Shown here piece after piece: positions 6,191-55,900 of a DNA stretch of 64,000 nucleotides (its first letter is position 1; every line of letters begins with the position of its first letter). Under the pieces are notes generated by a model. That model searched no databases. It saw only the letters and a program-made list of their open reading frames with translations, and was not told the DNA's origin. Position numbers and translations under genes: made by a program. This stretch comes from Hexactinellida sp. DTS-2022 (lineage: Eukaryota; Porifera; Hexactinellida). Where the stretch lies: the NCBI GenBank assembly GCA_028753945.1, contig JAPNXP010000009.1:434001-498000 (forward strand), in the 5' to 3' direction.

Positions 6191-6351
6191 AATAACTTAG
6201 TAATAGAATAATACTGTACGGGTTCTACTAACCATTTTATTGAGTAATAAATAATATAATATGCGTGCTAACTATAGGCATTAAATAGTAAATATGGATA
6301 TATAAATGTAGAGGGACATGTCTATACTCCACTAAATTTGTACGATACAAA

Positions 6352-7678: not shown

Positions 7679-9223
7679 GAAGGTGCACGAGACAACAGAT
7701 TTCCGCTGGCACCACTACAACCTCGAGAACGTGGACAAGCTGGGCTGGGATGAGTACCTGGTTAATTCCTGGGGACAGGAGGCCAAGGAGGGGAAGGGAC
7801 TCGATGTAGTGACAGACCCAGAGCGGGGATGGACACTGGGGTTCATTGTTGGTGAGTTATGCTGTCTATTAGCGAGTACAGTAGACTCCCGTTAATAGGG
7901 ACATGTACTATAAGGGGAATATCGGTTAAGGAGTACAAGGTTTAATTTCCATAGCCTATACGAATGCATGTAAGTGACTCCGGTTAATACGTGCAGTCAA
8001 CTCTCGTTATAACGAAGTGCTTGGGATCTGTAAATCCCTTCGTTATATCCAGATATTCGTTATAAGCGGATAATAATAATGCACTCAGTGCTTCGTTATA
8101 TCCGACTTCGTTATAACGGGAGTTCACTGTATTTCGGTTAATACGAACAAATTTCAACGGTCCCCTAGTGTTCCTATTAACAGTCTACTGCTATTTGCAT
8201 ACAATAGGGAGTTAGTTCCGTTATTCCTACTAACAGAGTCTACTCTACTGTACTGCTATTAGCAATACAGTAGACAGTGAGTTTATATGGTTGCTTATTA
8301 ACAGATCGCGAGAAGAGACGGTGGGACGGGGCGGACACAGACGGAGACGGGATGCTCAGCTTCGAGGAGTTCAAGGCGTTCTCAGAGCCGCACGCCTTCG
8401 CGCACATGAAACACATCGTAATATCAGACTCCATGGACGACCTAGACGCTAACCACGACAACTCACTCACTCTAGAAGAATACTTTTCTTATGTGAGATA
8501 TAAGTCTTAATTGTACCTAATGTTAGTAGCTATGAGGCCATCTATAGTACAGTATAACTCGGTTATAACATACTACGTATTATCCGAGTGTACATGTACG
8601 TACTAACCGAGTTTAACCTACATAGAAATACATACTGCTTTATAGACTTGGTAAATAATGAGTACGTTATAACCGAGTTCTACTGTACATTATAATACAG
8701 TGAACTCCTGTAATGAAGTCGGATATAACGAAATAACTGCTTATAAGTTATAATGAAATGGAGAATTCCCCCAGAGCACCAAATGCATTAATTATTATCC
8801 GCTTATAACGAATATCCGGATATAACGAAGGGATATACAGGTCCCAAGCACTTCGTTATAACCGAGTTATACTGCATATAATTATATAACTATATATATA
8901 TATATCTGCTCTAGGTGTTGCGGGGTCGGGACGAGAGGGAGCCCGACTACGAAACTCTAAAGAAGAGATACCAAGAGGACTTCTCTAGCAACAGAGACCT
9001 CAACAAGGACGGCGTACTCGACAGAGACGAGTTTAGCTACTGGGTGTATCCGGAGGGATTCCATAGACCCACTTCCGAAGTTAACTTCTTGTTCCAGAGA
9101 GCTGACATGAACATGGATGATAAGTTGTCGCATAAAGAGATAGTGGATAATCACCTAGTCTTTGTTGGGAGCAGCGCTACTGACTATGGGCAGATGCTCA
9201 AGAGGAAGAAGGATGAACTGTAG
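7679..9223 (+). CDS. Partial duplicate of CREC gene, exons 3-5 only
   Basis: Exons 7679-7851, 8305-8492 and 8915-9223 equal exons 3-5 of the gene at 3467 in length and phase (173, 188 and 309 bases) and encode the same residues, including the KDEL end. Even introns and their nested MITEs are copied. No signal peptide or first-EF-hand exon lies upstream, because the duplicated block starts inside intron 2. It could be spliced from exon 2 of the first copy as an alternative 3' cassette, or it may be silent. Near identity, including introns, indicates a recent duplication. Open frame fully intact. Confidence 0.75.
7879..8190. repeat. Nested MITE pair, duplicated copy
   Basis: Copy of the nested arrangement at 4654-4965: family B ends at 7879 and 8190, with the family A insert at 7994-8129. 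The nesting was therefore in place before the segment duplicated. Confidence 0.7.
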
Positions 9224-9630
9224 TTGTATTAATTATACTCTGTTAGTATTAGTTGTGTGTATTATTGTATTCTGTTGTGAGATACTGTATTAGACTGGGT
9301 TTAACAGCTAGTTTAGAGTCGTATTTTGCAGGAAATTTGCTTGATAGTAGGCAAACTTGCTAATAGAGGAACAGAAATAACATTAAATGCTCGCTTGGGG
9401 ACTGAAATAACTTAATAATAGAGAAATACTGTACGAGTTATGTTAATAGAACTCTCTTTGAATTATTAAATTACTAGACACGGGTTCTACTAACCATTTT
9501 TATTGAGTAATAAATAATATAATATGCGTGCTAACTTGTGAAATATGAAACTATAGGCACTAAATAGTAAACATGGAACTATTAATATACAGGGATATGT
9601 CGATACTCTTCTTAATTTGTACGATACAAA

Positions 9631-10362
9631 ATGTCAGGTTGGCAATGTTACTTTACCCCTGGGTGGGATGTTGGGAAGCCTGGAGCAATAGTAGACAGCA
9701 AACCATTCAGTGAGGGGGCCTGTCGCTATGCCTATCACGCTTTATACAGCAAATATCATGCCACCCAGCCTCATGGTACAAAGGCTGTCGTTAAAAAACT
9801 GAAAGATTTCACTTGCTGGCAGAGAGAAAACTGGGATCAGGAGTTGAAATTAGCTGAAAAAGCCAAATGTTTAGTTGATACATGGAATATAACGCGAGCA
9901 ATAGATAAGCGATATATTTTATATGTACCAGAGGTTTTACCAATAGGTAAATGCACAGTTTCTACTGAATTTAGTGTAGGAGAGTGGATAAGTATAGAAC
10001 CATATATTGAGGGTGATTATATTAAATGGAATTCGAATAGCGGTGCTTTTCGTGACCATAAGTTTTCCGTGCATTCATTCTGCCACTGGACGTACCATCA
10101 GTCTGGTGGTGATCTCCTCCTATGCGACGCACAGGGCGTTAGGAATGCAGATTCGTATATCATCACGGATCCCGCTATATGCAGTCGTGTGGCAGGCCAG
10201 TATGGTATGACGGACTGTGGTGAGCCCGCCATTGCACAGTGGTTCCGGGGTCACAAGTGTAATGAGTATTGTAACCCCGCTTGGTTGAAGCATTATAGCT
10301 CCAGTCCTTATATGCCAGTAGTAATGGCTTCTACTTATACCTGGCAAACGAAGAAGAAGTGA
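9631..10362 (+). CDS. Standalone alpha-kinase, copy 2
   Basis: 243 residues, same organisation as copy 1: GACRYAY, TKAVVKKLK, GEWISIEPYIEGDYIKWNSNSG, LLLCDAQGVR, TDPAI and the HKCNEYC zinc motif. It differs from copy 1 clearly in the first 50 or so residues (for example SDSKP-type changes around residue 20 and GWDVGKPGA in place of GWEEQKPPA) while the last 70 residues are nearly identical. That uneven divergence points to gene conversion or to relaxed or diversifying change at the N terminus. Lies downstream of the partial CREC copy, as copy 1 lies downstream of the full CREC gene. Confidence 0.86.
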   Translation: MSGWQCYFTPGWDVGKPGAIVDSKPFSEGACRYAYHALYSKYHATQPHGTKAVVKKLKDFTCWQRENWDQELKLAEKAKCLVDTWNITRAIDKRYILYVPEVLPIGKCTVSTEFSVGEWISIEPYIEGDYIKWNSNSGAFRDHKFSVHSFCHWTYHQSGGDLLLCDAQGVRNADSYIITDPAICSRVAGQYGMTDCGEPAIAQWFRGHKCNEYCNPAWLKHYSSSPYMPVVMASTYTWQTKKK

Positions 10363-12590: not shown

Positions 12591-13324
12591 CTATCACTTC
12601 TTCTTCGTTTGCCAGGTATAAGTAGAAGCCATTACTACTGGCATATAAGGACTGGAGCTATAATGCTTCAACCAAGCGGGGTTACAATACTATTACACTT
12701 GTGACCCCGGAACCACTGTGCAATGGCGGGCTCACCACAGTCCGTCATACCATACTGGCCTGCCACACGACTGCATATAGCCGGATCCGTAATCGTATAC
12801 GAATCTGCATTCCTAACGCCCTGTGCGTCGCATAGGAGGAGATCACCACCAGATTGATGGTACGTCCAGTGGCAGAATGAATGCACGGAAAACTTTTCGT
12901 CGCGAAAAGCACCGCTATTCGAATTCCATTTAATATAATCACCCTCAATATATGGTTCTATACTAATCCACTCTCCTAGAGTAAAGTCACCAGGACCTGT
13001 GCATTTACCTATTGGTGAAATTTCTGGTACATATAAAATATATCGCTTTTCTATTGCTCGCGTTGTATTCCATGTATCAACTAAACATTTGGCTTTTTCA
13101 GCTAATTTCAACTCCTGATCCCAGTTTTCTCTCTGCCAGCAAGTGAAATCTTTCAGTTTTTTAACGACAGCCTTTGTACCATGAGGCTGGGTTGCATGAT
13201 ATTTGGTATATAAAGCGTGATAGGCATAGCGACAGGCCCCCTCACTGAATGGTTTGTTGTGTGCTAATGCTGGAGGCTTCTGTTCTTCCCATCCAGAGTA
13301 AAAGTAACATTGCCAAACTGACAT
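12591..13324 (-). pseudogene. Alpha-kinase copy 3, frameshifted
   Basis: Inverted third copy. The frame is intact from ATG at 13324 through RGHKCN, then one base is missing (near 12690; GAG of the other copies is AG here). This gives a stop at 12668 and a 218-residue product that loses the second cysteine of the HxCxxxC zinc motif and the last 29 residues. The remaining coding sequence is otherwise preserved to the equivalent stop near 12591. Its N-terminal half mixes residues typical of copy 1 (GWEEQKPPA) and copy 2 (YAYHALY). Either a young pseudogene or a base-calling error. Confidence 0.75.
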
Positions 13325-13521
13325 TTTGTATCGTACAAATTAAGTGGAGTATTGGCATATCCCAGTGTATATTAATAGTTCCATGTTGTTTAGTGCCTAA
13401 AGTTTCATATTTCACAAGTTAGCACGCATATTATATTATTTATTACTCAATAAAAATGGTTAGTAGAACCCGTGTCTAGTAATTTAATATTTCAAGGAGA
13501 GTTCTATTAATTCCATTCCAG

Positions 13522-16745: not shown

Positions 16746-17644
16746 GAATTCGTATTAGTTTGCTGAAGTTTAACAAATATATACGTGTGTCGTACTGTCG
16801 TTTGATATGACTAACAAACAGTGGATTGTGGCTAGCAATTAATGTACGTAGTTTTGGACTTAGTTTTAAGTTTTAACACGTATTAAAATTATGTGTTGGA
16901 ACAAAGTTGCTAAATCAAATTTGCAATATAATCAGGTCTGTTATTGTGAACAAGCCCTATGGTCCCAATATTAACAACTTACATGGGGTTTGTATAAAGT
17001 TGAGTTCGCTTATTATTAACTATTATGAACATCATTTTTGGTCCCTTGAATGTTCATAATAAAGAACCTGACTGTATAATTGTATTCTAGAAAAAATACG
17101 AAGTCAAGTCAACATATGTAACAAATTTGATTATTCTTAAAATTGTAAAGGCTAATACTTTGTATTGATTCTCCTTTTGGTTGAACCAGTTATTTATCTT
17201 GTGAGATATGCAATTATAGAATTCTACCAAAGTGATATGAATATTATCATAAGCAGACCATTTTCACAGGGAAAATTGTATTCAAAAAACGAACTCGACT
17301 AAATACAATCCCTAAGTAAGTTGTTACACGCACCATAAAAAGTTTCATTTTAATCAGACGGGAAATTGTCTAGACCTGACTGTTTAAGGCATTTTCATCA
17401 TATAATTTGAATTATTTAACTATAAGTAGACAACCTATGCCAGGATTAGATTACTCCGCCATATAGGTATAGATCGAGTTACAAGAGACACACTGATATA
17501 TGAAATTGTTATATAATTTAGGCGCATTTCCCAAATTTTATTAGCTACTTATAATTAACTGACTCGTTAGATACAGGGGCGTAATCTCTGGGCTTGCAAA
17601 TATAAATAATATTTTGTAATCTGTGAATTATTTAATTTAGAAAG
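16746..17644. other. Intergenic region before CaMKII, one MITE
   Basis: About 900 bases of AT-rich sequence. A family C MITE occupies 16933-17074. The rest shows no coding potential or recognised site. Confidence 0.6.
16933..17074. repeat. MITE, family C
   Basis: Left end CAGGTCTGTTATTGTGAACA, right end TTCATAATAAAGAACCTGACTG followed by TA. Interior: CCCTATGGTCCCAAT and TTTGGTCCCTTGAATG. Further copies at 19852-20043, 44358-44552 and 58733-58804. Confidence 0.7.
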
Positions 17645-18985
17645 ATGGCTGGTTATAGTTCTGAACAAGACTTTCTGAAAGAATTCAAAATAGGCAATGA
17701 ACTTGGCAAAGGGGCATTTAGTGTCGTCAAAGAAGCGATAAACCTAAAAACCAAAAAGACAATGGCAGTAAAATTAATTAAAGCAAAGAACATTTCGGCC
17801 CGTGACGCAGGGAAAATAGATAGGGAAACGAGAATATGCAATACTATAAAAGACCATCCAAATATTGTCTCCATGTACCATAACTATAAATCGCCAGACT
17901 ATTATTTCTTGGTTTTCGAGTTGATAACTGGGGGAGAATTGTTCGACGACATCGTAAAACGGGAGTTTTATTCCGAAGAAGATGCAAGCAAGGCTGTTAG
18001 GCAGATACTATCCGCGATCCAATATTGCCACGAAGGAAATATTGTGCACCGCGACTTGAAACCGGAGAACCTTCTCCTCTCCTCCAAGGTCCAGCCGGCC
18101 GATATAAAGGTAGCGGATTTCGGCCTTGCGATCGAACTCGAGCACCCGACCGCCTTCAGTTGGTACGGGTTCGCCGGGACCCCGGGGTACCTGTCTCCGG
18201 AAGTGATCAAGAGGGAGAGCTACGGAAAACCGGTCGACACCTGGGCCATCGGCGTTATCCTGTACATCCTATTGGTGGGCTATCCGCCCTTCTGGGACGA
18301 GGTACAGGAGAAACTCTACAAACAAATAAAACTGGGAAGTTATGAATTCTCCAGCCCAGAGTGGGACACGGTGTCTAAATCCGCTAAGGACCTAATCAAA
18401 CAGATGATGACAGTGGACCCTCACAAGAGGATTTCAATCTCGGAGAGCCTTGATCACCCCTGGATAAAGGGCAAGGAGGCAAACAAGATGCATCGCCAGG
18501 AAACACTGAAGGCTTTGAAGATGTTCAATGCGCGCAGGAAGCTCCGCTCTGCCGTTAACGTTAACATATTCCTTAACCGCATGACGCCAATGTCCTCTGC
18601 GAAGGAGCAAGCGGAGGAGACGGAGAAGGGGGCGGAGCACACCGATCTCGAGGCCGACACCATAAAGGCGGACATCCAGCAGGCCACACAGAGGCTGCTG
18701 GAAGCAGTGGTCGCGGGAAACGAGGCGATTATCGCTGCGCTTACGCACCCTAGCGCCACGTGTGTCCCGCTTAAGGAGAAGCGCTGCTTCTTGAAGGACG
18801 CCCGCGTAACCGTACTGGAACCCAAGGTTCACCTCTTGGGCCCTAGCTCCGCTTGCATTTCCTACCGAGCGCTGGTTAAGCAGAAAGCGGCGGACCAACC
18901 TGAGGAGGTGTTCCAGCTGAGCGAGACGCGGGTCTGGGACCACATCGATTCCGAATGGAAATGCATTCACTCCCACACCTCATAG
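17645..18985 (+). CDS. CAMK2: Calcium/calmodulin-dependent protein kinase II
   Basis: Single exon, 446 residues. Kinase domain 14-272: GNELGKGAFSVV, AVKLI, HRDLKPENLLL, DFGLA, GTPGYLSPEV, DTWAIGVILY. The autoinhibitory segment MHRQETL keeps the threonine equal to T286, followed by the calmodulin-binding LKMFNARRKLRSAV. A short linker precedes the hub (about 340-446): DIQQATQRLLEAVVAGN, KVHLLGPSSACISYRALV and SETRVWD....W...H.H. The hub assembles CaMKII into 12-14-mers. Two oddities: the residues aligned with the inhibitory sites T305/T306 are Val and Asn, and the hub lacks about 18 residues in the segment that contains the EPEALGNLVEG region in other animals. CaMKII genes usually have many introns; this one has none. 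Confidence 0.94.
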   Translation: MAGYSSEQDFLKEFKIGNELGKGAFSVVKEAINLKTKKTMAVKLIKAKNISARDAGKIDRETRICNTIKDHPNIVSMYHNYKSPDYYFLVFELITGGELFDDIVKREFYSEEDASKAVRQILSAIQYCHEGNIVHRDLKPENLLLSSKVQPADIKVADFGLAIELEHPTAFSWYGFAGTPGYLSPEVIKRESYGKPVDTWAIGVILYILLVGYPPFWDEVQEKLYKQIKLGSYEFSSPEWDTVSKSAKDLIKQMMTVDPHKRISISESLDHPWIKGKEANKMHRQETLKALKMFNARRKLRSAVNVNIFLNRMTPMSSAKEQAEETEKGAEHTDLEADTIKADIQQATQRLLEAVVAGNEAIIAALTHPSATCVPLKEKRCFLKDARVTVLEPKVHLLGPSSACISYRALVKQKAADQPEEVFQLSETRVWDHIDSEWKCIHSHTS

Positions 18986-19751: not shown

Positions 19752-22700
19752 ATGTCGGACAAACATTTCAAGCCGAGTATCGTCTCGGCTGGCCCTAGAG
19801 ATGCGGGCACAGAATGCTCCGAGGACTTTATGCAGGTTAGTTTGAATCATACAGGCAGGTCTGCTTATTGTGAATAATATTTCGTCTGCTTAATATGAAG
19901 AACTTTATTATGAACAAGCCCTATGGTCCCAATTTTACAATTACTTAAGGTTTTTATTAATTTGAGTTCACTTATTATGAAGTCTCTCTATTATGAACAC
20001 AATTTTTGATCCCTTGAATGTTCATAACGAAATTACCTAACTGTATTATAATTTACGCTCGATTTATTATTTTCTGATCCTACCCCAGGAGCTGGAACAG
20101 ATCCCCTCGCACCCCTCCTTCATCCAGCCGCTGCTGGAGCAGGGCGAGACGGCGGAGGACGGACGCAAGCTGCTCCGGAAGATAAAGCAGGATCCCGAGT
20201 GGAAGAAGCGAGTGGAGAAGATGCTCAACTTCGAACTCCACACCCTGAGGGGCAGACTCTACTGGGAACAGGACAAGCTCAATGAGCAAAAGAAGTACGA
20301 ATTTATTGCATAATCACCGTATTGCTTCGAATAAGCGCCCGGCGCTTATTGTTTTCGTAAAACAAAATTATCCTGAAATCTTTCTGAAAAATCCGAAAAC
20401 ATAATTTCATACCGAATTCGTCAAAATCGATGTAATTACACGCCAGTGATTAACTAAAGTGTTTAAATTTTTATCATACCAATGTCATTTTTATTGCCCG
20501 GCGCTTATACGGGGAATACGGTAGCTATTACTCTGCGTTTACTTGTGTGTCCTTAGATGTCTGCGGAAAGAGAAGGAAGAAGGAGACAGCTCGCACTCGG
20601 GACAGCTCCAGCTGATCAGTCAGCTGAAACAGAATCTGAGAGAGTACATGACTAACCGGATTAAACTAGAGTCAAACCTCGCAGAGGACAAGGTACCGAC
20701 TCACTAATCAAAATAAATAATAACAACAATATTCTACACCAGATATCCGTTAGTCGCTAGCCATTGAAAGCAGTTCTTCCTTGCTCGCACTGTAGTAGCT
20801 GTCTTTCCAAACCTGTTTCAGTTTGTCCTTAACCTCTGCCAGCTGCTTCCCCTTAAAGTTCAGCTTTAGCAGGTCGTGTCCTGTCACGGGGAAGGCGGGG
20901 CACTCCCAGTTCTCCAGCTGTGCGACCTCCTCCGCGGCTCTCTCCACATACAGCATAACCTCCCGCACCTGGCAGACCGGCATCCCGTCCACTACCAGGT
21001 CTCTGCAGTGCTTAACGTAGTCGTACTCTGGTGTGTGCACCTTCCCGTAGAGAGTGCGCTGCGTGACAATAACGATAGCCAGCTTCCTCTCCTTGTTGGA
21101 CATTCTCCACTTACTGCATAGGTCCCCCACCGAGTGCGCGTCGCCTCCCTCCAGCAGCGAGACGAACAGCGTCTCAGCTGACAGCTTCCGGCCCCCGCTG
21201 TGGACCCGCCACACCCTCTCCAGCTCCTGGAGGTTCCCGGGCGTCGGCAGCCGCAGGGGCAGGCCCAGGCCCAGCTGGTACATCAGCCGCAGGAGGGAGG
21301 GGCAGTGGCCCCCCGTCAGGATCTGCTGCAGCTCTCTCCAAATCCGCTCCACTGATATGTCTCTGAGGCCCCCCGCGTTCTCCCGGATAGCGTCCAGCGT
21401 CTGCGGCTCGTGTGCGTCCGGCGCACAGCTGATCCTCCCGTAGAACCGGAAGTACCTCAGAATCCGCAGGTAGTCCTCGCGGATCCGCTGGACCGGGTCC
21501 TTCACGAACCGGAGTCTCCTCGCCCGGAGGTCCTCTAGTCCACAGAAGTAGTCCATAACCTCCCCACTCTCGTCCATGAACATCGCGTTAATCGTAAAGT
21601 CCCGCCTCGCGGCGTCGCCAGCCCAATCGTTCGTGAACTCTACTTCCGCGTGCCGTCCGTCCGTCACCCTGTCCACCCGGAGTGTGGTCACCTCTATGGG
21701 CGGGGTCCCCTCTATCACCACCATTATGGTGCCGTGTTTTATGCCGGTGGGCTCGGTCCTGTACCCTGCCTTCTCTAGGAACGCTTGCATCTGCTCGGGA
21801 GTCGCGTTGGTGGCCAGGTCCACGTCGTGCGGCTCCGCCCCCAGGAGCAGGTCCCGCACGGCGCCCCCCGCCACGCGCGCGCGGAACCCGTTTCGCGAGA
21901 AGCAGCTGATCAGTCCGGTTACCTTATCTGGCAGGACCCGGGCCAGCAGCGCCGGGTCAATCAGCCCCGAGTGCAGCCGCAGCCCGTCCGACTCCCTAGT
22001 TACCCCGGAAGCCATTAGGTATGCTGCTTTGTTGAGTCTGTGAGGGGCTAGGCTTCTTGTTGGAGCAATTAATTCTCTTGTTCTGCGGCAAATAACAGTT
22101 AGCATTTATCGCTATTATTACAGCTAATTACGAGCTATACTATTGTTGTTTATAAGTTGTTTGTTCTCAGCGCTTGAGTAAGAAGCTCGTCGAGGAGGCG
22201 AAGAAGGCAGCCAAGCCGAGACCCAAGCTCAGCGAGGTTCTCAACAGAGCCGCTCCCGCCCCACAGCAGCAGCCAGAGGAGACAGCCTCGCGACTAGTGA
22301 CACCTGTGGAGACAGCCTCGCGACTAATCACACCTGTGGAGACAGCCTCGCGACTAATCACACCTGTGGAGACAGCCTCTGCCTCGCGACTAATCACACC
22401 TGTGGAGACAGCCTCTGCCTCGCGACTAATCACACCTGTGGAGTCAGCTGTGTCGGCTGTCTGCACAGAGTATAGCGAGCTGAGCAGACCTGCCTCTCCC
22501 CTCTCCTCCCTTCCCTCCCCCTCCCACACAGACAGACCCGCCAGCAGGAGCTCCAGGAAAGAGTCGGGGAGTCCGAGGGGCCGCAGTCCCAGTCCCAGCG
22601 TCTCGGACAACCCCTCCTCCGCAAAGGTGCCCTGCTACCTCAGCGAGGCCGGTTCGGTCGGAAAGCCGGCCTCTCTCGCTCAGTCGCAGGACTCCGTAAA

Positions 22701-25700
22701 GTTCCCAAAGATAACGAACTCCCCTCTCATCTCCGCTCCGGACACAACCACCAAGCCCCCCTCTGTCCAGCCAGACCCCTCCATTCAGTTCGGCCTGTCC
22801 CAAGAGGAGTCAGCTGTCTCCCTCAAGTCCAAGTGCTCTCGCTGCGGAACCAAGAAGTCCTCCCGGACACACCCCTCTCCTCGCGGAATTTCTACCGCCA
22901 CGCAGGATTCCCAGCCGACCCTCTACGCACAGGCGCCCGCCAGCTACCTGCAGTACCCGCCGCCGCACCTGCGCCAGGCCACGCTCCCCTCGCACAACCT
23001 GCACCTCTCCTCGCCCCCCGTCCTCCTGCAGCACGCGCCCATCCCCTACAGCTACCTGCAGCCCTGTCACGAGTGCGTGCCCGCCCCACAGCACCTCTGC
23101 CACCAACAGCTGCTCTGCTCGCCCTGTCCGCTCCACAAGGAGGCCGGCTTCTCGCAGCAGTTCGAGAACCTCAAGGAGTTCATCCGGGAGGAGATCCGAA
23201 CCGGCTGGACCAAGTCCCCCCGCGTCCGGCGTCCCAAGGGCTACCCCACCCAGTACGCCGGCACTGAGACCACCACTGCCTCTGAGACGGAGTCAGAAGA
23301 CCCCTACCTGCTGCCCGGACAGACCCGCTCCTCCCTCTCCTCCAAGCGGGCCGGCAAGCCCCTCAAGAGCTGGAAGGGACAGGACACCTCAGTGCACACC
23401 CTCGCGGCTACTCACAGCCTGCAGTCCAAGCGCTCCGAGGCCTCCAGCATCCTAGACGACGAGCTCTTCATGAAGCTAGTCTCCAACCCAGCCAAGTACA
23501 GCTACGAGCTCCAGGAAATCGCGAAACTTCTCACCTCTCCCCCTGCTTCCCGCGCCAGCAGCACGACCTCCCGCCAGAAGCTGCGCACCATAAAGCACCT
23601 GGTGCGTGACGCCATCAGCAGCTACTCCACCAGCGAGATGGACAGCGACACAGCTGACGAGGGCCCGCTCCGCGCAGAGCTCTCTGAGTCGGACGCGAAT
23701 CTCTCCCGTCTGGAGCACGTGAGCAGCCGCACTATACACAAGGCCAGGAAGGCCAAGGAGCAGGGACTGCGGGTCGAGCCGCGCATCAGCCCCAAGCCCT
23801 CCATCCTGAAGACCTCCAGTCGCACCTCCGACCGGGCCGTCGACCCCGCCACCTCCCTCACGGGCCTCAAGAGGGTCAACTTCTCCTCAGAAACCATAAA
23901 CATCGACGACGGACAGCCCATGCAAGTCAGCAACATTCCAGATGACTACGTGGTTGTCGAGGAGGACGAGATATCCCTGGCCACACAGGAGCTCCAGCAG
24001 TCAGAGCAGTCAGATTCCGCGCTAGCGAGCAGAGCCGAGTCAGCTGATGCCCTCTCCTCCCCCACCAAGAGCACCATGCACGTGGCCTACCCCTACGACC
24101 AGTACATCGCCGGAGAGCTAGCCGAGCCCTACACGATCCTGCAAAACGAAAACGAGTCTGTCTCCCTCTCCGAGAGCGCGGCGTCCGGGCGGGGCGGGCG
24201 TGTGGGCGCTGCCAGCCGAGTTCTCACCGAGATGGGTCTGGACTCCGAGCTGAGCAACAAGCTCTCCTACTCGCACAGCCTCGAGCTGAAGGCCTCCCTC
24301 CCCTCCATCCCCTCCTACGTGTCCGGGACAGAGAGTCGCAACAGCATTTCTCTGCGCCCCAACAAGCCCGCCCTCGAGAGCGCGGATCAGACGGACCCCG
24401 GTCGGGGGGGTCTGCTCTCTCACAGAGCCTCCCTCAACCAGGTGGTGCCACAAGACCTCAGGCGCGACGAGTTAGAAGAGGAGAAGAGGAGCAACCGAGA
24501 CCCACCCACCCCCCCTGATGCTCCAGCTGTTCCCGTCTGTGTCGAGGTGTCACAAGTCGAGACGGACTCTCAGCCCCCCAGTCGCCGCGGCTCCCTCTCC
24601 TTAGGGGAGCGCGAGTCCAGGAGACAGTCCCTGGCGCAGCTGAGTAGAGCCTCACTTGTGTCCAAACCCTCCAGGCATACCGGCATGCAGCAGCAGCAGC
24701 CCTCTCTAGCGGAGGAAAGTGTTATAGAAAAGCAAACCTCCAAATCCTCTCTGGCAGAGAAGGCCAGCAGGATATTCTCCAGCATCACATCTCTCGTGTC
24801 CATGAAAGCCTCCAAGAGCTCTCAGCACGTGGGACCTGTGGCCGAGGAGGGATCCAATACAGGGATGCATTCCAATGTCTCCAATGCGTCTCTACCCGCA
24901 CACCCACAGTCTGAAGAAGCAAACACTTCAGTCAGCAGGAGTGGGTCCAAACAAGAAATACCAAAAGTCAATAGTTCAGTTAGCAAAGTGGCATCCAAAC
25001 AAGAAATACGAAAGGTCAATAGTTCGGTTAGCAAGGTCGCATCCAAACAAGAAGACTTACACAAGGTCAATAGTTCTGTTAGCAAAGTGGCATCTAAACA
25101 AGAAATACCAAAAGCCAATAGTTCGGTTAGCAAGGTCGCATCCAAACAGGAAGAGTTACAGAAAGTCAATAGTTCTGTTAGCAAAGTGGCATCCAAACAA
25201 GACGACTTACAGAAAGTTAGTTCAGTTAGCAAAGTCGCTTCCAAACAAGAAGAGTTACAGAAAGTCAATAATTCAGTTAGCAAAGTGGCATCCAAACAAG
25301 AAGAAATACAGAAAGTCAATAGTTCAGTTAGCAAAGTGGCATCCAAACAAGAAGAGTTACAAATGGTCAATAGTTCGGTTAGCAAAGTGGCATCCAAACA
25401 AGACGACTTACAGAAAGTTAGTTCAGTTAGCAAAGTCGCTTCCAAACAAGAAGAGTTACAGAAAGTCAATAATTCAGTTAGCAAAGTGGCATCCAAACAA
25501 GAAGAAATACAGAAAGTCAATAGTTCAGTTAGCAAAGTGGCATCCAAACAAGAAGAGTTACAAATGGTCAATAGTTCAGTTAGCAAAGTGGCATCTAAAC
25601 AAGACGACTTACAGAAAGTCAATAGTTCTGTTAGCAAAGTGGCATCCAAACAAGAAGAGTTACAGAAAGTCAATAATTCTGTTAGCAAAGTGGCATCCAA

Positions 25701-27612
25701 ACAAGAAGAGTTACAGAAAGTCAATAGTTCGGTTAGCAAGGTGGCATCCAAACAAGAAGACTTACACAAGGTCAATAGTTCTGTTAGCAAAGTGGCATCC
25801 AAACAAGAAATACCAAAAGCCAATAGTTCTGTTAGCAAAGTCGCTTCCAAACAAGAAGAAATACAGAAAGTCAATAGTTCTGTTAGCAAAGTGGCATCCA
25901 AACAAGACGACTTACAGAAAGTCAATAGTTCGGTTAGCAAAGTGGCATCCAAACAAGAAGAGTTACAGAAAGTCAATAGCTCGGTTAGCAAAGTGGCATC
26001 CAAACAAGAAATACAAAAGATCAATAGTTCTGTTAGCAAAGTCGCTTCCAAACAAGAAGAGTTACAAATGGTCAATAGTTCAGTTAGCAAAGTGGCATCC
26101 AAACAAGAAGAAATACAAAAAGTCAACAGTTCTGTTAGCAAAGTGGCATCCAAACAAGAAGAGTTACAAATAAGTGCGGATTCTAACGGAACTGACGAAG
26201 AGCCTCCTCAGTGTGACTGCACGGACTGTCCAGATCCCACAGAGTGCACTGGGCCCTGTATCCCTCCTGTGGAGCCCTCTCTCTCCGCGGAGGCTCCCGT
26301 CCGGATAGTGCTCTCCCCCGAGGCGCCTCCCGCCGCCAGGGCCGAAGAGGGAGGGGAGATGGGCGTGGTGATGACGTTCTCCAAAGAATGGAAGATTGTG
26401 TGCACCAAGGCGTGCCCTGGCGGCGTCCAGGAGACCACTATAACCGACTGGAGAGACCCGAACGTAGACTCGGAAGTTATACAAGTCTCGCAATCCTCGG
26501 AACCGATGGGAGAGGGGACAGACACGATTACAGCCCCATCATTAGAAGGAGAAGTGGACAGCTCTGAAGGGAAGGAGCAATCTAACCAGATTGATACTCC
26601 ACAGGAGTCTGAATCAATAGAGACACCAGCTGCGTTAGGAGATGCTCAGAAGACAGATTTAGAATCAGCAGAGACAGAGGAACCAGTGTCTGACAGAACA
26701 GAGTTTATAGAGACATACGAGTCTGCTCAGCAGGAGGCTAACAGCTCCAATAGTGCAGTGACAGCTCCAGCTGATGAACTGACCGAGACGGGAGAATGTC
26801 TGGAGGAAGAGCACAGAGCCTCAGATAAGGTGGGAGCTCCTACAGAAGATAGTAATACGAATGAGGAATCTGGAATCATAGTTATAGAATCAGAATCTAC
26901 AGTAGAAGCTCCTATAGAGACTATAGATATCACAGGTACAACTGAATCTACAGAGAATATCGATAGCACAGGTCCCACTGAATCTACAGAGACTATCGAT
27001 AGCACAGGTCCCACTGAATCTACAGAGAATATCGATAGCACAGGTCCCACTGAATCTAACGCTACAGAAATTATAGATAGCACAGGTCCCACTGAATCTA
27101 ATGCTACAGAGACTATAGATAGCACAGGTCCCACTGAATCTAATGCTACAGAGACTATCGATAGCACAGGTTCCACTGAATCTAACGCTACAGAAATTAT
27201 AGATATCACAGGTCCCACTGAATCTAACGCTACAGAGACTATAGACAGCACAGGTCCCACTGAATCTAATGCTACAGAGACTATCGATAGCACAGGTTCC
27301 ACTGAATCTACAGAGACTATAGATAACACAGGTCCCAATGAATCTAACGCTACAGAAACAGCTGAGCAGACTCAGTCTCCCAAATCTGAAGTTTCCACTG
27401 CTAACACAGAGGCAGGAGCTATACCAACTAATCTCAGCTCAGAAGTACCCAAATATACTCCGATAGAAACCGCAGCAGACGAACTGGAGTCTGTTGATCT
27501 CACAGATTCCGCAGAGAAAACAGATTCTACGAATGGCCGCGATCCACAAACCGGAGATCTAGAGTCGAAAGATGTTCCTATCGCCGGGACGGACACTCCC
27601 CAGGATAAATAG
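19752..27612 (+). CDS. Large repeat-rich coiled-coil protein, unrecognised
   Basis: Four exons, 19752-19835, 20089-20294, 20557-20692 and 22171-27612; all junctions are GT-AG and in phase, giving 1,955 residues. The N terminus is charged and probably coiled-coil (LRKIKQDPEWKKRVEKML, LISQLKQNLREYM). Three tandem-repeat zones follow: about five copies of ETASRLITPV (22280-22440), about 24 copies of a 17-residue unit NSSVSKVASKQEELQKV (24960-26168), and about twelve of a 9-14-residue unit with DSTGPTES (26920-27350). Between them are Ser/Pro-rich stretches and a CSRCG motif. I recognise no known domain. The last exon carries no upstream ATG, so it must be joined to the exons before it. The gene hosts TRNT1 in its third intron. 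Function unknown; composition suggests a structural or scaffold protein. Confidence 0.78.
19852..20043. repeat. MITE, family C, in intron 1
   Basis: CAGGCAGGTCTGCTTATTGT at the left, TTACCTAACTG followed by TA at the right. It fills most of the 253-base intron, but the splice sites lie outside it. Confidence 0.65.
20316..20522. repeat. MITE with ACCGTATT ends, in intron 2
   Basis: Left ACCGTATTGCTTCGAATAAG followed by CGCC, right GGCGCTTATACGGGGAATACGGT: an imperfect inverted repeat of about 24 bases. A related piece lies near 41585-41625. Different in ends from the CAG families. Confidence 0.6.
20750..22105 (-). CDS. TRNT1: CCA tRNA nucleotidyltransferase
   Basis: Single exon, 451 residues, antisense within intron 3 of the repeat-rich gene. 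Class II nucleotidyltransferase features are all present: VAGGAVRDLLLGAEPHDVDL with the two metal-binding aspartates, EVTTLRVD, RRDFTINAMF, the RIREDYLRILRYFRFYGRI flexible region and the helical C-terminal body. The enzyme adds CCA to tRNA 3' ends in cytosol, nucleus and mitochondria. The first 30 residues are rich in Arg/Leu/Ser without acidic runs and look like a mitochondrial presequence. A second in-frame Met at residue 31 (22015, MASGV) would give the cytosolic form. Length is normal for animal TRNT1. Confidence 0.95.
   Translation of the reverse strand: MLTVICRRTRELIAPTRSLAPHRLNKAAYLMASGVTRESDGLRLHSGLIDPALLARVLPDKVTGLISCFSRNGFRARVAGGAVRDLLLGAEPHDVDLATNATPEQMQAFLEKAGYRTEPTGIKHGTIMVVIEGTPPIEVTTLRVDRVTDGRHAEVEFTNDWAGDAARRDFTINAMFMDESGEVMDYFCGLEDLRARRLRFVKDPVQRIREDYLRILRYFRFYGRISCAPDAHEPQTLDAIRENAGGLRDISVERIWRELQQILTGGHCPSLLRLMYQLGLGLPLRLPTPGNLQELERVWRVHSGGRKLSAETLFVSLLEGGDAHSVGDLCSKWRMSNKERKLAIVIVTQRTLYGKVHTPEYDYVKHCRDLVVDGMPVCQVREVMLYVERAAEEVAQLENWECPAFPVTGHDLLKLNFKGKQLAEVKDKLKQVWKDSYYSASKEELLSMASD
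24960..26168 (+). repeat. 51-bp coding minisatellite, about 24 units
   Basis: In-frame units of 51 bases (48 in some) encode NSSVSKVASKQEELQKV variants. A four-unit block (DDLQK, EELQK, EEIQK, EELQM types, one unit short by a residue) occurs twice in a row at about 25200-25560, showing recent multi-unit duplication. Because the unit has no stop in several frames, long shadow frames appear on both strands here. Confidence 0.9.
26920..27350 (+). repeat. Coding tandem repeat, TIDSTGPTESNATE type
   Basis: About a dozen in-frame copies of 27-42 bases; the longer ones contain an extra ESNATE. High Ser/Thr content and Asn-Ala-Thr sequons appear, but the protein has no signal peptide, so glycosylation there is unlikely. 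Confidence 0.85.
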
Positions 27613-39389: not shown

Positions 39390-42300
39390 TCAAACTGAGC
39401 TGACACAGGTCTCTTCTTCCTTCTTCAGAGATAACAGGTGTTGCAGGCACGCGTGATTAGGATCCGATATATGCGCATAGTTCATAAGCAGATGGTAGCA
39501 ACACTTGTGGAATAGAAAGCTAGCTCCATAACTGAGCGCCGCTTGGTACAGCTCCAAAACAACTTCGTTATCGATCTTCCTAGCTAGTATACTCTCCATT
39601 TCTCCCTGCATGCGCTCTATTAGGAACTGTTGCGCACAACTCAATAGCTCTACTCCCATCGTTAGATCGTCATGAGGGTATATAAGGTCCCCGGTGTACA
39701 GGTATGTCAGTACGTGCGATAATACCTAGTGACAGAACTGTGTGAATGGTATGCTGATATTATGTCACCTGTGAGCTAACCTGTGATCTTATAGTTGGAA
39801 AGGTGTGTTCGTTATTTTCTTTCTGTTCCCATAAACCGGATTCCAGCATGCTCTTAAATACCGGACTCTGAGTGCATAGCAACAGTTTGTGAGCGTAGAA
39901 CCTACAAATATACTCGGTACTTATTAGAGGCACTGAACTAACTAACACACAAGTTATAATCGGAATTAACTAACTAAGTTATAATACAGTTGTTCCCAAC
40001 CACAAGATGTATTACGGTTAATGGGAGGGGTCACATAATGTCTAATACTATTACTATAGGGAGTCCACGGGTGAAAAAGGTTGCAATTGCTGTTCTAATA
40101 GGAACTAACAAAGTTCTATTAGCAACTAGCTAGCTAGCTATGGGGTCACAGGACGCGAGGAGGCCTGAAATCGCCGCTAAGCAGAGGGGCCCAGGCCCGG
40201 CTAAGTACGTCCTCCCCTCCCAAACCGGGCGCATCTGTCACGACCCGACCCGCATGATGTCACCGGCCTACTCCTTCGGGAAGCGTCTCGGCTCCAGTAT
40301 CGTGCGTCCGTGGTCCTCGCCGGGCCCCGTGCACTATGTGCACCCGTCCCTAACGCGCACGGGGCGGGAGGGAGCCCCCGCCTACACCCTCAGACCCAGA
40401 ACCAGAGTTCTGCAGCCCGCGGCGATCCCGGGCCCGGGGGCGTACCGACCGGAGCGTACCCCTGTCCTCTCGCAGAGGCGGGCCCCTCAATACTCCTTCG
40501 GAACAAAGGGACCGGAGCCCCCGGCAAGTCGCACCCCCGCCCCCAACAGCTACGCGATTAAGACCACCATAGGCCGGGACGCCGCCACACAGCACTCGGG
40601 ACCGGCCTACTCGATGCTCGGACGCTCCCTCTCCGGCTCCTTCGCAGAGGACAGGGCCCGGACGCCCGGGCCCGCGGCCTACCACTGCGAGCGGAGCGAC
40701 CGATTCTTAAAGCGCAGTCTCTCCTACTCCATTCTGGCGCGTAACTTCGGCGTAGAGGGGAAGAGCCCCTGCCCCCCGCCCGGGAGCTACAGTCCCGAGA
40801 GGTGTGTGACTCCCTACTCCAGCTCCCCCGAACCCACATTTGGGGTCAGACACTCAGAGTACTTGACACCTCTGATGGACTCAAAGCTACATTAACCCCC
40901 TTTCTATTTTGTTATTATTTACCGCGCGGCTAATTATTATACACCACTTATTATTTATTTTGTATTTTTTTTGTATTTGTATTGAATTAAACTTTTTATA
41001 TTTTACATGGTAACCTTTGAAAGCAAACGAATTTGTAGTTTGAAAATACATTAAACCAATAGATTTGTAGCGTATTAACCGTGTTCGTACTAACGAGGTT
41101 CTACTGTATACTAATTAACTCACTTTTTCCCATCGCTGGATATGAGTATGACGTCACTGAGACTCTCATTACTGAGATAACTCGAGAAGTCCAGACAGCC
41201 GAACCCAATATTGGCAGGCACCTCCTTGCCCGTCCCTGGCGCGAACTTCTTCATAGCCAGGTAATGCAGGGCGGTGGTGTTGGCCTCGGTTAGTATTATA
41301 GGGTTTGCGCCGAGCTCGAGCAGCTGTATCATCATCTCGTAGTCGAACTTACGCGCGGCAGTAAGGAACAGAGTGTTGCCTAGGGGTAAGGGACCATGGA
41401 TTATAAGGGTCATAAGGATTGTTTCATGGGACAAATTTTTGAGCCTCAAATTTTTTTTGAAAAATCCAGAAAATAGCATTTAGGTGGATTCTAATGGTTC
41501 TCAGTAAACATATCGAAATTGCATAAATTAATGTTAATATTTAGTTATCAACTAATGGGTATTAATATCATACAATATCATTTTATTGACCCTCCGCTTA
41601 TCGGGAATACAATACGGTATATAATACCTTCCTTGTTAACAGGCCCTGTGTCTATCTTCATGTTGTGTTTGTTGATGAGGTGAGCTAGCATTCCTATTTC
41701 TCTCTGATTGAAAGCCTCGAACATCCAACAATAATCCTTCCTAATAACGACCTCTTCTGAGCGCAGTATCGCTTCTCGGTGAGTCAGAACCACATCCAGA
41801 ACCTGCATGCCAATGGTTAACTCCGGTAGCTATGCCAGATAGCTATCCATGGTTACCTGGATGCTCCTGCTGCGAATGCTCTCATAGGCCAGTGTCGGTT
41901 CGCAGAGGGTATAAATACTCGCGAGTAGGCTCTTCTCCAGCAGCCCCGCCAGCGACCCAGTGTCGCCTCGGGCTATAACCTCGATAATCTCGTCCGTGAC
42001 GCCCTTGTTGCGCTCCTGGAGGGCGCTCAGTCGCTTGGGTCTGAGAGAGACGGGAGGGGGGTTCCGACGAGTGTCCTGAAGTGACACGTCCCTAGCTAGG
42101 GTGGGGCCGGCCCGCCCCTGGGGCCCCTGGGACTCCAGACTCAGATGCAGGTCTCTCAGGTCCCCCGCGTTCAGGTTCAGGTTCTGGAACCTATAATAAG
42201 GCTTGTATAGTCAAACCGGTTTATAACTAAACGGATTACTAACTATTTATTCTAATTGTGTAAGAAATTCAAATTTTGTTCTATCTTCAATCGGCTTATT

Positions 42301-44327
42301 TTAACTATCGGATTTTCCTACTTTATTTCCATGCAAAGAATTGGTTAGAAACCTGTTTAGACTGCGCATTCCAATTGCCTAACATAGTAGCTATGCTTAC
42401 TTAGGGTGCCTAGGCACGTTAAGCTGTGTCTCGAGACTCTGGCACAGCTGTGAGATCTGACTGAGCGCGATGTATCCGCTCTTAACCCGAATGTTCTGCT
42501 CTATCCTGTTGAGCCCCGACTCCAGGGCAGTGGCGTATATCAGGAACGACTTATCGATCAGCTCTGAGAGGAGCACAATGGCCACTACCCTAGCCTGGTG
42601 CACCAGCGCTTGTAGCTCGTCTCTGTCGATAGAGAAATATGAAATCATAGAGGAAAAGGCCCCCTCGGTGTTAATGCTGCAGGAACTGGAGCTCAGCTTC
42701 GTGAGGGAGTTTATCAGGCGCGTGTGAGATAGGGGCGTGTTCTCAACCTAATTACAGAAATAATGTATAGTTGAAACCGGTGTTTTCTAATCAATTCTTT
42801 GCATGGAAATGAAGTAAAAAAATCCGATAGTTGGAATAAACCGATTGAAATTAAAACAAATTGGAATTTCTTACACATTTAGAATAAATAATAGTACGTG
42901 GTTAGAAAAATCCGGTGTTAGAAAAAACCGGTTTCGACTGTAGTATACTCGTTATAGGAACACCAGGGGACAATCTTAATATGTTCGTATTAACTGGAGT
43001 CGCTTGCATGCATTCGTATAGGCTAGGGGGGATTAACCCTGCATATATCCGTGTTCCTATTAACGAGTATACTGTATCTCTCTATCCTGGATACGGTATT
43101 ACCTTGATGGCATGCTCTTGCTGTAGACAGGTATCTAGGTCTGCTTTGAATGTTCCCATCTCCTTAACAATGTTGGTGAGTGTGCATATCATAGCGACTG
43201 GCCAGTCGAACTGGGATACCAACGCCTCCTCAGGAATGTTATCCTCCTGCACAGCTGTTTGGAAGCTGGTTACCTTATTATAGGAAATTAACGCGCCATG
43301 AAATGAACTCGAAGGAAATTAACGCGAAGGAAATTAACTCGAAGGAAATTAACGCGCCATGAAATTAACGCGAATTGGAGCTGAACATTTTCAAATACAT
43401 GAAATTAACGCGAATAATTTTTAGAAAAAAATTCAGGATTATTAATCTCCTGATTAAAACTATTTATTGTGCCCAAATTTCCTATAACAAGTTACCTTCT
43501 GCAGGAGGCCGCACAGCTGTCCGTGCTTGAGTCCGGTCCTCTGGGCGTCTAGCACCGCTTTCTTGAGGGCGTTGATATCGGAGGAGAGCTCTGCCAGTCG
43601 GTCGCGGGACCGATGCATGTGAGAGATGCGCTTTCCTAGCAAAGCAGAGCTGAGCTCGCTGTGCACGCTACGGAACTCCCCGTCCTGTGTCTTGAGTTCA
43701 GATCTCTCCTAGCGTGTTAGGTTATGTGTTAGGTATAAGGAGTGTACTTGTTATAGGCCAACACCTCTATAGTGTAATTACAGACACTGGCAAGGTCATT
43801 TGTATAGCAAAATTCTCCTTTAATTTGTAGGTCTTGGTAATGAAAAAAAAAATGAAAATTTTCACCAGGTATCAAAAATAGCCTAATAATGTTATATTTT
43901 TAATAAATAAAAATTCTTTTCGATATTTAGAATTTCTGAAAATTTAATATGAGGACACCGTTATATATAAGTACGTATTATTGAAAGGTGTGTCCGCTAC
44001 ATAAGTAGTCCCTGTATTATTAACAGTATAGATACGCACCTGTACCTGCACCTGTCTCAGCTGGGCCCCCTGTCGTATCCCCATAAGCAGAGCCTCTCTG
44101 GGGGTGTCTAGCTGAGGGGGGGCACCTTGCTCTATGGGAGGAGGGACTGAGGTGCCATTCGTCTCAGGCTCGTATTCGTAGACTACCCAGTCTTCTGGCA
44201 TATCCGGCGGGGGCTCGGGTATCTCAGAACCGAAGGGCTTAGATTTAATTATGAATTCCTCAGTCGCTTCATCTGTCGGAGAGTCAGGAGTTTGCTCGTG
44301 GTCGTTGGATCCGTTGGAAGAGGCCAT
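39390..44327 (-). CDS. WH2-motif, ankyrin and BTB protein
   Basis: Nine exons on the minus strand: 44040-44327, 43496-43708, 43103-43273, 42401-42747, 41857-42190, 41628-41802, 41124-41379, 39781-39901 and 39390-39725. All are GT-AG and in phase, 746 residues. Exon 1 could also end at 44046. Layout: acidic/proline N terminus, WH2-like actin-binding motif LLMGIRQGAQLRQV (about 80-93), helical middle part, ankyrin-like repeats with GNTLFLTAARK...LLELGANP (about 400-560), then BTB with LSDVILISSDGKKFYAHKL and VLTYLYTGDL (about 575-680) and a BACK-like tail. BTB proteins often recruit cullin-3. I know no named family with this exact order. Intron 2 looks like an introner and intron 7 holds another gene. 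Confidence 0.8.
39987..40092. repeat. hAT-like MITE
   Basis: CAGTTGTTCCCAACCACAAG at the left and GGTTGCAATTGCTG at the right; interior GTATTACGGTTAATGGGAGGGG, as in copies at 49467 and 51025. Flanks TTATAATA and TTCTAATA give a 6 of 8 match, consistent with an 8-bp hAT target duplication. Confidence 0.6.
40140..40895 (+). CDS. SHIPPO-repeat protein (ODF3/CIMAP-like)
   Basis: Single exon, 251 residues, inside intron 7 of the ankyrin-BTB gene, opposite strand. At least six Pro-Gly-Pro repeats of SHIPPO type at about 35-residue spacing: GPGPAKYVLPS, SPGPVHYVHPS, IPGPGAYRPER, APNSYAIKT, TPGPAAYHCER and PPPGSYSPER, alternating with AYSFG/QYSFG-type motifs. This arrangement and length match the ODF3/CIMAP family of sperm-tail and ciliary microtubule-associated proteins. 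GC-rich. The ATG follows repeated AGCTAGCTAGCT. Confidence 0.8.
   Translation: MGSQDARRPEIAAKQRGPGPAKYVLPSQTGRICHDPTRMMSPAYSFGKRLGSSIVRPWSSPGPVHYVHPSLTRTGREGAPAYTLRPRTRVLQPAAIPGPGAYRPERTPVLSQRRAPQYSFGTKGPEPPASRTPAPNSYAIKTTIGRDAATQHSGPAYSMLGRSLSGSFAEDRARTPGPAAYHCERSDRFLKRSLSYSILARNFGVEGKSPCPPPGSYSPERCVTPYSSSPEPTFGVRHSEYLTPLMDSKLH
41803..41856 (-). other. 54-bp intron with in-frame stop
   Basis: GTAACCATGG...GGCATGCAG between exons 5 and 6 of the ankyrin-BTB gene. Its length is a multiple of three, but it contains TAG in frame, so retention would truncate the protein. Using the first AG instead would give a 27-base intron, which I consider less likely. Confidence 0.65.
42206..42364. repeat. 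MITE family K, copy 1
   Basis: TAGTCAAACCGGTTTATAAC on the left and AAACCTGTTTAGACTG on the right; interior includes TTCCATGCAAAGAATTGG. It lies in intron 4 of the ankyrin-BTB gene and has an inverted relative at 42769-42940. Confidence 0.65.
42769..42940. repeat. MITE family K, copy 2, inverted
   Basis: AGTTGAAACCGGTGTTTTCT to AAACCGGTTTCGACTG. The interior CAATTCTTTGCATGGAAATG is the complement of the matching part of copy 1. Lies in intron 3, the neighbouring intron. Confidence 0.7.
42943..43074. repeat. Family B-like MITE in intron 3
   Basis: TACTCGTTATAGGAACACCA at the left and GTTCCTATTAACGAGTATAC at the right form an inverted repeat; TCGCTTGCATGCATTCG inside matches the family B interior. 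Confidence 0.7.
43274..43495 (-). mobile_element. Introner-like intron (TIR element with co-opted splice sites)
   Basis: Intron 2 of the ankyrin-BTB gene, read on the minus strand, is GTAA followed by an element that starts CTTGTTATAGGAAATT and ends AATTTCCTATAATAAG, followed by GTAA at the start of the next exon. The 4-bp GTAA repeat looks like a target-site duplication. Its first copy supplies the GT donor; the end of the element supplies the AG acceptor. Splicing would restore AAG-GTAACC exactly. The interior repeats GCGTTAATTTC and GAGTTAATTTC. Confidence 0.8.
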
Positions 44328-52900: not shown

Positions 52901-55900
52901 ATAATATTCGATAATTATTCCCGCACATAGAAGAGAGTCAGTATTATTATTCTACATAACGGCAATCCAAATATGCAACAGCATATACCTTAGTTACAGC
53001 CATGGGCTTATGGTATTAAACGGATTAATTGAGTGAGCTACGTAATGCGGGGACGCTTCGCTGGAGAAGTTATTTCAAAGTCCGGAGGTTCGCATTGTCT
53101 CGAGTTGTCGGCGAGGGGGGCGAGGGGTACAAAAGTGGCCCCACTGGGTGCCGCCTCTTCCCGCGGACGGACGGGGGGACTCGGACCGGTTTCTGACACC
53201 TCTGGGTCGCTGTCCTCATCGCTGTCCGGCTCGTACTCCACCAGGCGCGTGGGGGTACGAACGGCGGGGGTCGGGGAGTCGGGAGCGCTGTCCTTGATAG
53301 GACTCGCGGTTATTATCGGGAGATCTGACAGGTCGGTGCTCATAGGTGCCAAGTCCTCCCCGGGGCTGCTGGAATTAACCGCGTACACGTCATCGTCTCT
53401 GTCGAACCACGCCTCCTGGTCTCGCTGCTCGCGCTGGTCCTCCCGGGCCGACCAGTGCATCATACCCTCCAGCTCGCGGATCGGGTTTATGCTCTCAGCC
53501 TCTCGCATGCGGTCGTATTCTAACTGCATCTTAGAGAACAGTTCCACGTACCCGATGTCCCGGACCTCAGGCAGGGACTCCACCACGTAGCGGAGCAGCC
53601 CACTCGTCCGCTCGCTTAGGATGAAGCTGAACAGCTCAAGACAAGCCGAGTTAATCATGTTATAATTCGGCGTAGTCTTAAGCAGCGTAGCGACCGGCTG
53701 CAATAAGTTGCTACGGACGATGTACGAGTTAAGGCCCTCCTCCTTCATACCTATTATCTTCCGAATTAATCGGATTGTTATGAGCACCAGATGAGAGTGT
53801 CTTGAGGTCAACAGGACAACAACACGCGACAACAAGTTCTTGTTTATAATGTACACTCTACTGTGGTAGGTGTGCTGCTCCACACAGAATGCCAGCAGCT
53901 GGATTATGTAGGATAGGATCTCAGTATTCTCGATTGTGTCGGTGGATCGTCCGACCCGTAAATCAGTTGTGACTGCCAGGAGTGGCGCTATCAAGTGGTG
54001 CATGCAGCTTTTGTATAAATAGGAGAGAAACGAGGTTCTATCGACCAGCTTCATTTCGGGACTGAAGTTGTCCGGGTCTATAAGAGTCTTGATGAGAAAG
54101 AAAGTGGAAGCGTCGAGAGAAGACTTGTGTGGGTCCACGAGTATGTTGATGAGGAGATTCATAATCTGTTCGTCCTCTTCTTGCAGGTCCGCTTCGAGTG
54201 TAACTTTCAGTTGAATGCTGGTGCAAGAAAACTCGGTTATGGTCTGGAGTATATCTACTCCGCACTGTAGTATGGAGTCATCGTCAGAGCTGAGGATTAT
54301 ACCCAGGGACTTCATGATGCCGTTATTCCATAGAATCTGAGAAAAGTTGTGTTTGGAAGTAGGATTCTGCGCCGCCTGAGAGAACAAACAGATCTCTTTC
54401 AGAAGAAACACGAGATCTCTGAATTTGTGCCCTACCACCTGTATATTCTCGTCCTCAATACCCGCGAATAAATCCATTAGAAATGAGTCTTCCTTTTCTA
54501 TCATTTCTACAATCTCTATTTTTTGGAACAGAATGTACTGGCCCAGGGCGCTCATAAGATTCTCCTCAAACATCGAGGGCGCTGGGAGAATTGCGTCCTG
54601 TATGTATTGCATTTTGTACATCAGGTGTATCTTGGTTAGCAGATCTCCATTAGCTATGGGGATCACATCTTTGAAGGTCGCTTGTCTCAGAATGAACTCC
54701 CTGTGAGTTGAAGGGGTAGGCAGCCTCGGGTCGTGTTCCAGACACCCTATAACGTCCATAATGCACGCCTCGCTAAGCATTATCTGCAGTATAGCGGCCC
54801 TGTTCATTAGGAAGAGATTCTTGAATATACTGTACAGGTTCTGTAGACTTGCTACGTCACTCTCCTTCTCGCAGACCTGGAACAGCTCGAGCAGCTTCCG
54901 AAGATAATCCTCGGATTCTATGGCCGCTATCACGCCGTCCTTCTTTATGACAGGGTTCGCGTACTTGGCCAGGAGCTCGTTTATGCAGGGCAAATTATCT
55001 ACTGAGCACCCGGGTAGATCGATTGTGTAGGTTGTGTCCTGTGAGTTGTGGAATATCTGATCGTCGTCAAACGCCTCCGCCCCCGAGAGATCGTCCCCTG
55101 TCTCTCCCAGCTCCTGTGTCCGACCCTGCACCTCTCGGATCTTGGACCAGACGTCGTCACAGCCCTGCTTCTCCTGGAAAGAGAGGGCTTTCTCGATCTC
55201 GTTTTCGTCCCACACTATAAGCGTAGCGTCCTGCTTTTGGTAGACCCTGTCGGTCTCGATTCGGGACTCGAGGAGGACGGACCCGTTGTCCTCGCTACGC
55301 ACAACCAGCGCCAACCCCTGTAGGTACTCGAGGAACACCACCGTCACGTGGCCCGTGCCCTTGTCCTCCCAATCGTGCATGTCGTTCAGAACAAAGAGTT
55401 TTACGCGCCTTCGAGTCTCCACTATGAGCTCGTCGACCCCGTTTTCCCGGATCCCCTCCTGCTCCTGAGAAGGATCTTGGTCCCCGTCTTGTTCTACGTC
55501 CATCTACTATAGTCTCAGGCAATTCAGACTCAAAACGAGCTGCTAAAGCACAATTCATAATCAAGCTAAAATAACTGAAATTAATCAGTCAACAAATTGT
55601 AGAGATCAGATACAATTCTACTTATAACGAATAGGAATTCATATAAACAATGTCAATATAAGGGGCCTAGCTAGTATGTAACATGCGATATTCGGGAAGT
55701 GTATATAAGTGTATGAAATGACTGAATGAGTAAAAGTAGCAATAATATTATTATGAGTGTATAAGAGAAAGCAAAGATTTAGGCTAATTATAAACCAAAT
55801 AAATGAAGTATAAAAGTCCTATACCAAATACACAATATGAATGTACCCCTCACTGCTAAACTGAGATAACTGGTACCAGAGTTTTAGTGCTGGGCTAGAA

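Follow-up and report, generated by a model that had tools for sequence, protein, structure and literature searches.

Probable conversion of a single MITE-like element into an intron of a WH2/BTB gene

Intron 2 of a predicted WH2/BTB gene is probably a single transposon-created intron: a non-autonomous, MITE-like element of the TA-target type appears to have inserted into a coding exon, is predicted to be spliced out of the transcript and would later have been shortened by a deletion. The gene lies in the window, by which we mean the whole stretch of 64,000 nucleotides that was analysed. At the level of sequence, the element and its TA duplication make up the whole intervening sequence, the element belongs to a family of hundreds and the predicted reading frame is open only if the element is removed. 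The features concerned are as follows.

39390 to 44327, minus strand: model of the host gene, nine exons and 746 codons, exon boundaries placed by hand
43496 to 43708, minus strand: exon 2, 213 bp, boundaries placed by hand
43274 to 43495, minus strand: predicted intron 2 of the WH2/BTB gene, 222 nt (74 codons), GTAACT...AATAAG
43493 to 43494: intron-side copy of the TA target-site duplication, which forms the donor GT with the host G at 43495
43273 to 43492, minus strand: MITE-like element, 220 bp, with the ends ACTTGTTATAGG...CCTATAATAAGG, the family end being CCTTATTATAGG
43475 to 43479: approximate junction of the internal deletion, placed by comparison with longer copies
43273, minus strand: terminal G of the element and first base of exon 3, which substitutes for the host G shifted into the intron (direct reading)
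43271 to 43272: exon 3 copy of the TA target-site duplication, from the family comparison
43103 to 43273, minus strand: exon 3, 171 bp, boundaries placed by hand
42748 to 43102, minus strand: intron 3, two other elements within a short intron with a host remainder of about 46 nt (our reading of the sequence), inverted repeats detected
42191 to 42400, minus strand: intron 4, another element within a short intron with a host remainder of about 50 nt (our reading of the sequence, boundary approximate)
41803 to 41856, minus strand: intron 5, 54 nt, element-free

On the minus strand the junctions read AAG/GTAACTTGTTATAGGAAATT...AATTTCCTATAATAAG/GTAACC, with GTAA flanking both sides and inverted ends; direct reading of the letters and coordinates agrees here with a preliminary description of 43274..43495. 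When intron 2 is removed, AAG/GTA ACC continues in frame and all 746 codons stay open, whereas in a retained intron the frame runs for 11 codons before it meets the first of 10 stops. The product spliced in silico is the sequence minus the element and minus one TA, so the exact restoration of the coding sequence claimed earlier is borne out in silico. Intron 2 consists of the element and the TA duplication only. The lack of any host intron remainder, compared with about 46–50 nt in introns 3 and 4 and with the lengths of introns 5 and 8 (54 and 55 nt), supports the view that the element is the intron. Thus, the intron has the make-up expected of a transposon-created intron, namely a mobile element with its target duplication and nothing else, and its removal gives back the coding sequence reconstructed for the site before insertion from the flanks.

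The profile scan of the whole 746-codon model finds a BTB domain at residues 576–683 (E 1.3e-18), which is encoded downstream of the insertion, and a WH2 motif at residues 76–100 that falls just below the Pfam cut-off. An ankyrin match is weak (E 2.6e-4, under the cut-off, with the exon 7 frame scanned in isolation) and is absent from the domain scan of the whole model. A search of the same genome for paralogs, with E up to 1, returned only the gene's own exons (three matches). Introns 1, 6 and 7 measure 331, 248 and 1222 nt in the model. Inside intron 7 (41123–39902) lies a nested gene on the opposite strand, a single frame with sperm-tail PG-rich (SHIPPO) repeats at 40134–40895 (+). Elsewhere in the window, a CaMKII-like protein with an association domain (449 aa, 17636–18985, +), a poly(A)-polymerase-head protein (451 aa, 20750–22105, −) and a PP4R3-like protein (821 aa, 53038–55503, −) each lie in one uninterrupted frame, in contrast to the eight introns of the BTB gene model. 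An Ndc1-like protein of 605 aa also occupies a long single frame, and a single frame of 1818 codons at 22156–27612 (+) contains two repeat arrays, a long one made up of SSVSKVASKQE-like units and another of STGPTESNATETID-like units.

To define the element, we compared it with its relatives elsewhere in the genome assembly, which comprises 18 contigs and 112 Mb. Used as a DNA query, the interval gave at least 88 same-genome matches including itself, counted from the 40 scored of 579 candidates, and the best non-self match among those 40 has an E value of 2e-79. The preliminary description had let its claim depend on a second copy of the element in the genome; the 25-base terminal-repeat pattern is found at 922 places (455 + 467) with up to three mismatches, and the reversed pattern used as a control is found at none. 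The interval is therefore not a chance arrangement, and its family numbers hundreds. The sample compared below comprises 61 distinct copies with both ends within 1.5 kb, taken from 90 fetched loci; it leans to well-preserved copies, and older intronised copies could be missed. The median copy length is 378 bp. The left 150-bp flanks of the 61 copies have a mean GC of 0.337, and a coding empty site is absent in 60 of the 61, a measure that does not distinguish intronic from intergenic placement.

The ends of the family deduced from the other copies are CCTTATTATAGG...CCTATAATAAGG, and they place the target-site duplication at TA. TA stands on both sides in 51 of the 61 copies and not in the other 10, a count biased towards TA because loci L031–L090 were fetched with TA-containing patterns and the patterns that recognize copies include TA themselves (up to four substitutions). 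GTAA, previously described as a 4-bp duplication, is ruled out as the target-site duplication by this comparison and was a misreading of TA. The GTAA seen on both sides has two sources: the element's terminal G looks like the host G that precedes the TA, and the first element base on the donor side is here an A. At this position the 53 other copies have C in 97 of their 106 ends, T in seven, G in one and A in one, and ends starting with CCTTATTA are the commonest (82 of 106). The account of the splice sites given earlier has to be divided in the same way: the element does supply the acceptor and the donor is borrowed from the insertion site, but the donor is made from the host G and TA, not from a 4-bp duplicate. 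With a TA duplication, inverted ends and hundreds of relatives, the central claim that the intron is an entire insertion of the DNA-transposon type stands.

The window copy is also distinguished by what it has lost. Relative to 36 longer copies, an internal stretch of about 190 bp is missing (median 193, range 167–223), and with it most of one terminal repeat. With up to three mismatches allowed, the pattern of the deletion junction has a single match in the genome, and none of the other copies shows it. The predicted RNA fold of the window interval with short flanks has an energy of −58.7 kcal/mol (z −2.2), compared with −122.1 kcal/mol (z −7.5) for a full-length copy with its flanks, whose terminal stem is far longer than that of the window copy. 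This shortening may help splicing of the window copy.

These features can be ordered into a likely course of events. The target would have been AGG-TA-ACC on the coding strand, within the element-free sequence AGGTAACC reconstructed from the flanks, and insertion would have turned it into AGG-TA-[element]-TA-ACC. In this arrangement, the last host G and one TA copy would form the donor GTA. The last bases of the element are AAGG, of which AAG would serve as the acceptor, and the final G would replace the displaced host G. Removal by the spliceosome through the G+TA donor and the AAG acceptor would then yield the exact pre-insertion mRNA, AAG/GTAACC. The internal loss of about 190 bp presumably came after insertion, and the C that the family has at donor position +4 appears to have been replaced by A. 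The usual splice donor consensus is GTAA, which the A on the donor side of the window copy fits.

The framing by GT...AG is weak evidence of splicing taken by itself, since insertion at any coding GTA yields it. Coding sites of this kind are common: in ten window ORFs, 133 of 782 coding TA sites (about 17%) are preceded by G and 42 by AG, so the framing needs no selection. The intact downstream frame of the predicted gene is the stronger point for splicing. All 1740 bp of coding sequence downstream are open and stop-free. Under neutral substitution and with indels ignored, the chance of meeting no stop would be 0.52, 0.27, 0.13 and 0.04 at 1, 2, 3 and 5% divergence, respectively. The tree tip of the window copy is 0.041 long against a median of 0.027 (49 copies), and the copy diverges from the column majority by 0.074 (14 of 189 columns), the fourth highest value of 54 copies. 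Part of this divergence reflects subfamily difference and alignment, because strictly private substitutions are found at just two of 166 well-covered positions, which is too sparse for a firm age. The tree suggests that the copy is moderately old and not young. The tip length and the open frame together favour continued function after the insertion, although they do not amount to proof; with so few private substitutions the age argument is softer, and at 1–2% divergence an open frame would be unsurprising.

The main alternative is that the element is a disrupting insertion which is not spliced, or not efficiently, and that the window holds a recent or segregating knock-out allele whose GT...AG framing is a by-product of landing at a GTA. 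The frequency of G-preceded TA sites and the few private changes fit such an allele, and so does the acceptor, which is weak: it reads AAG, compared with TAG or CAG at the other seven modelled acceptors of the gene, and a competing CAG lies 8 nt downstream, where its use would break the frame. However, the downstream coding sequence is open and the BTB domain intact in spite of a tip length above the family median, and the internal deletion of this copy has a junction found in no other. On balance we consider a knock-out allele rather unlikely, and a spliced insertion remains the preferred explanation.

The preliminary description went further and regarded the element as introner-like; introner families comprise at least four similar introns in the definition given in PMC9860276. 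Among the sampled copies we find one such case. When the flanks are joined at the empty site, 10 of the 61 copies have 25 codons of open frame to either side. The hexamer score is 0.564 for the window copy and −0.268 for the best of the other 60; the table used was trained on window ORFs selected for their length, and one of these ORFs overlaps exon 1 of the WH2/BTB gene. Coding flanks are thus joined by one of the 61 paired copies, that of the window. The genome holds 52 exact GTA-flanked ends, and of the 38 inspected with at least 150 bases of flank, again the window copy alone lies in coding sequence (score 0.687), followed by L106 (0.164), L101 (−0.002) and the other 35 at −0.234 or below. 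The terminal repeat preceded by AG-GTA has just four exact matches, and the three besides the window copy have non-coding flanks on the donor side. Across the window and the fetched loci, some of them overlapping (344,705 bases), 809 overlapping pairs of TA-flanked inverted repeats of any kind were scored, and two pairs are positive on both sides: the window element and a marginal pair in L030.

The runners-up were rejected on inspection. The donor-side flank of L106 is GC-rich and open in one frame, but most of this flank is another repeat, which matches L050 at 81% over 151 bases, and the far side has 40% GC; the far side of L101 has 29% GC; and the pair in L030 (2587–2788) scores a marginal 0.03 with no G before the TA. 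Within the host gene, the acceptor of intron 4, CCTTATTATAG/G, matches the terminal repeat letter for letter, but what else intron 4 contains looks like a short host intron with an unrelated element, and the acceptor was set aside as a second element-derived splice site. The repeats AGGTATGTTGTAATAAGAA and AGGTATTCTATTATATGAA were also tried as introner candidates, and the seven places read are unrelated AT-rich or tandem repeats. In four closely similar repeat copies (L094–L097, compared by eye), an AT-rich leader is followed by a tandem GGGGGAGAAACGGGGGGCGTGGC array. The window holds further TA-flanked repeats of about 850 bp with common inverted ends, at 4783–5634 and 8008–8860, which are possibly a tandem duplication. 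They adjoin two of the window's three alpha-kinase frames. Profile matches are found for the frames 6292–7080 (+) and 12671–13339 (−) (7.2e-41 and 5.9e-39), and a third frame at 9616–10359 (+) resembles an alpha-kinase by eye in the ORF listing.

In the sample, which is not the whole genome, an introner family is therefore not supported: the family has given one intron, and its sampled copies otherwise lie outside coding sequence. It could still be proposed that many other introns are older and more diverged copies beyond the reach of the search, as the 922 end matches and the lean of the sample to well-preserved copies would allow; with coding sequence at the window copy alone in both counts, and with non-coding flanks at the other AG-GTA matches, we hold this to be very unlikely. 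Least probable of all is an older intron at this position that was invaded and then replaced. Introns 3 and 4, which hold other elements within short introns, offer a model for it, but beyond the element and its duplication nothing of a host intron remains here, and insertion straight into an exon predicts just such an exact restoration at the duplication.

A more far-reaching reading of the same insertion can be offered tentatively. On either strand the family element has a potential 3′ splice site at its end (...TTAATTTCCTATAATAAG/G), and wherever it entered a coding GTA it would be framed by GT...AG with exact restoration, so the family may be pre-adapted to making introns. The window copy might then represent a first step of a MITE towards an introner, tuned after insertion by the change of donor position +4 to A and by the loss of most of the long terminal-repeat stem through the internal deletion. 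The best reading of the present sequence remains a one-off conversion of a transposon to an intron, with sampled copies that are otherwise ordinary non-coding repeats.

Compared with known elements, the window family shares a TA duplication, inverted ends, a short body and hundreds of copies with TA-target MITEs of the Tc1/mariner type, the first two of these hallmarks being seen in a TA-biased sample. By these hallmarks it is a candidate member of the superfamily. Tc1 splicing in Caenorhabditis elegans concerns laboratory mutations, and removal is often imprecise. As is predicted for the window case, an exonic TA-target element is removed from the pre-mRNA via sites at or near its ends; however, removal in the window case is predicted to be exact and is apparently long-standing.

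Transposon insertion is a mechanism of intron gain for which PMC3443670 tabulates 35 events in Oryza, Drosophila, Oikopleura and Zea, and the same paper describes many recently gained introns without a traceable source. In the tabulated cases, as probably in the window case, an AGGT-like site receives one DNA element that makes up the entire intron, and the coding sequence is unchanged. Those introns use a duplicated AGGT, whereas the window case has a TA duplication only, a donor G from the host and a terminal G of the element that replaces it. If spliced, the window case is a member of this class; on the sample tested, it lacks the similar introns that would make an introner family. The introners of Symbiodinium microadriaticum, the example given in PMC9860276, resemble it in having inverted ends and a target duplication, in taking the 5′ splice site from the side of the duplication and in carrying the 3′ splice site within the element, but they have 4-bp duplications and families of at least four introns, compared with TA and one intron in a family whose sampled copies are otherwise non-coding. 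According to PMC9860276, introners are enriched in genes in 161 of 175 introner genomes, and its 2022 survey of 835 animal and land-plant genomes reports them in only two groups, both animals. The window case may add a lineage if its host belongs to the animals or their close relatives, as the CaMKII-like protein with an association domain and the usual distribution of such proteins suggest. A single conversion within a large, ordinary MITE family raises the question of how an insertion intronised only once differs from a spreading introner.
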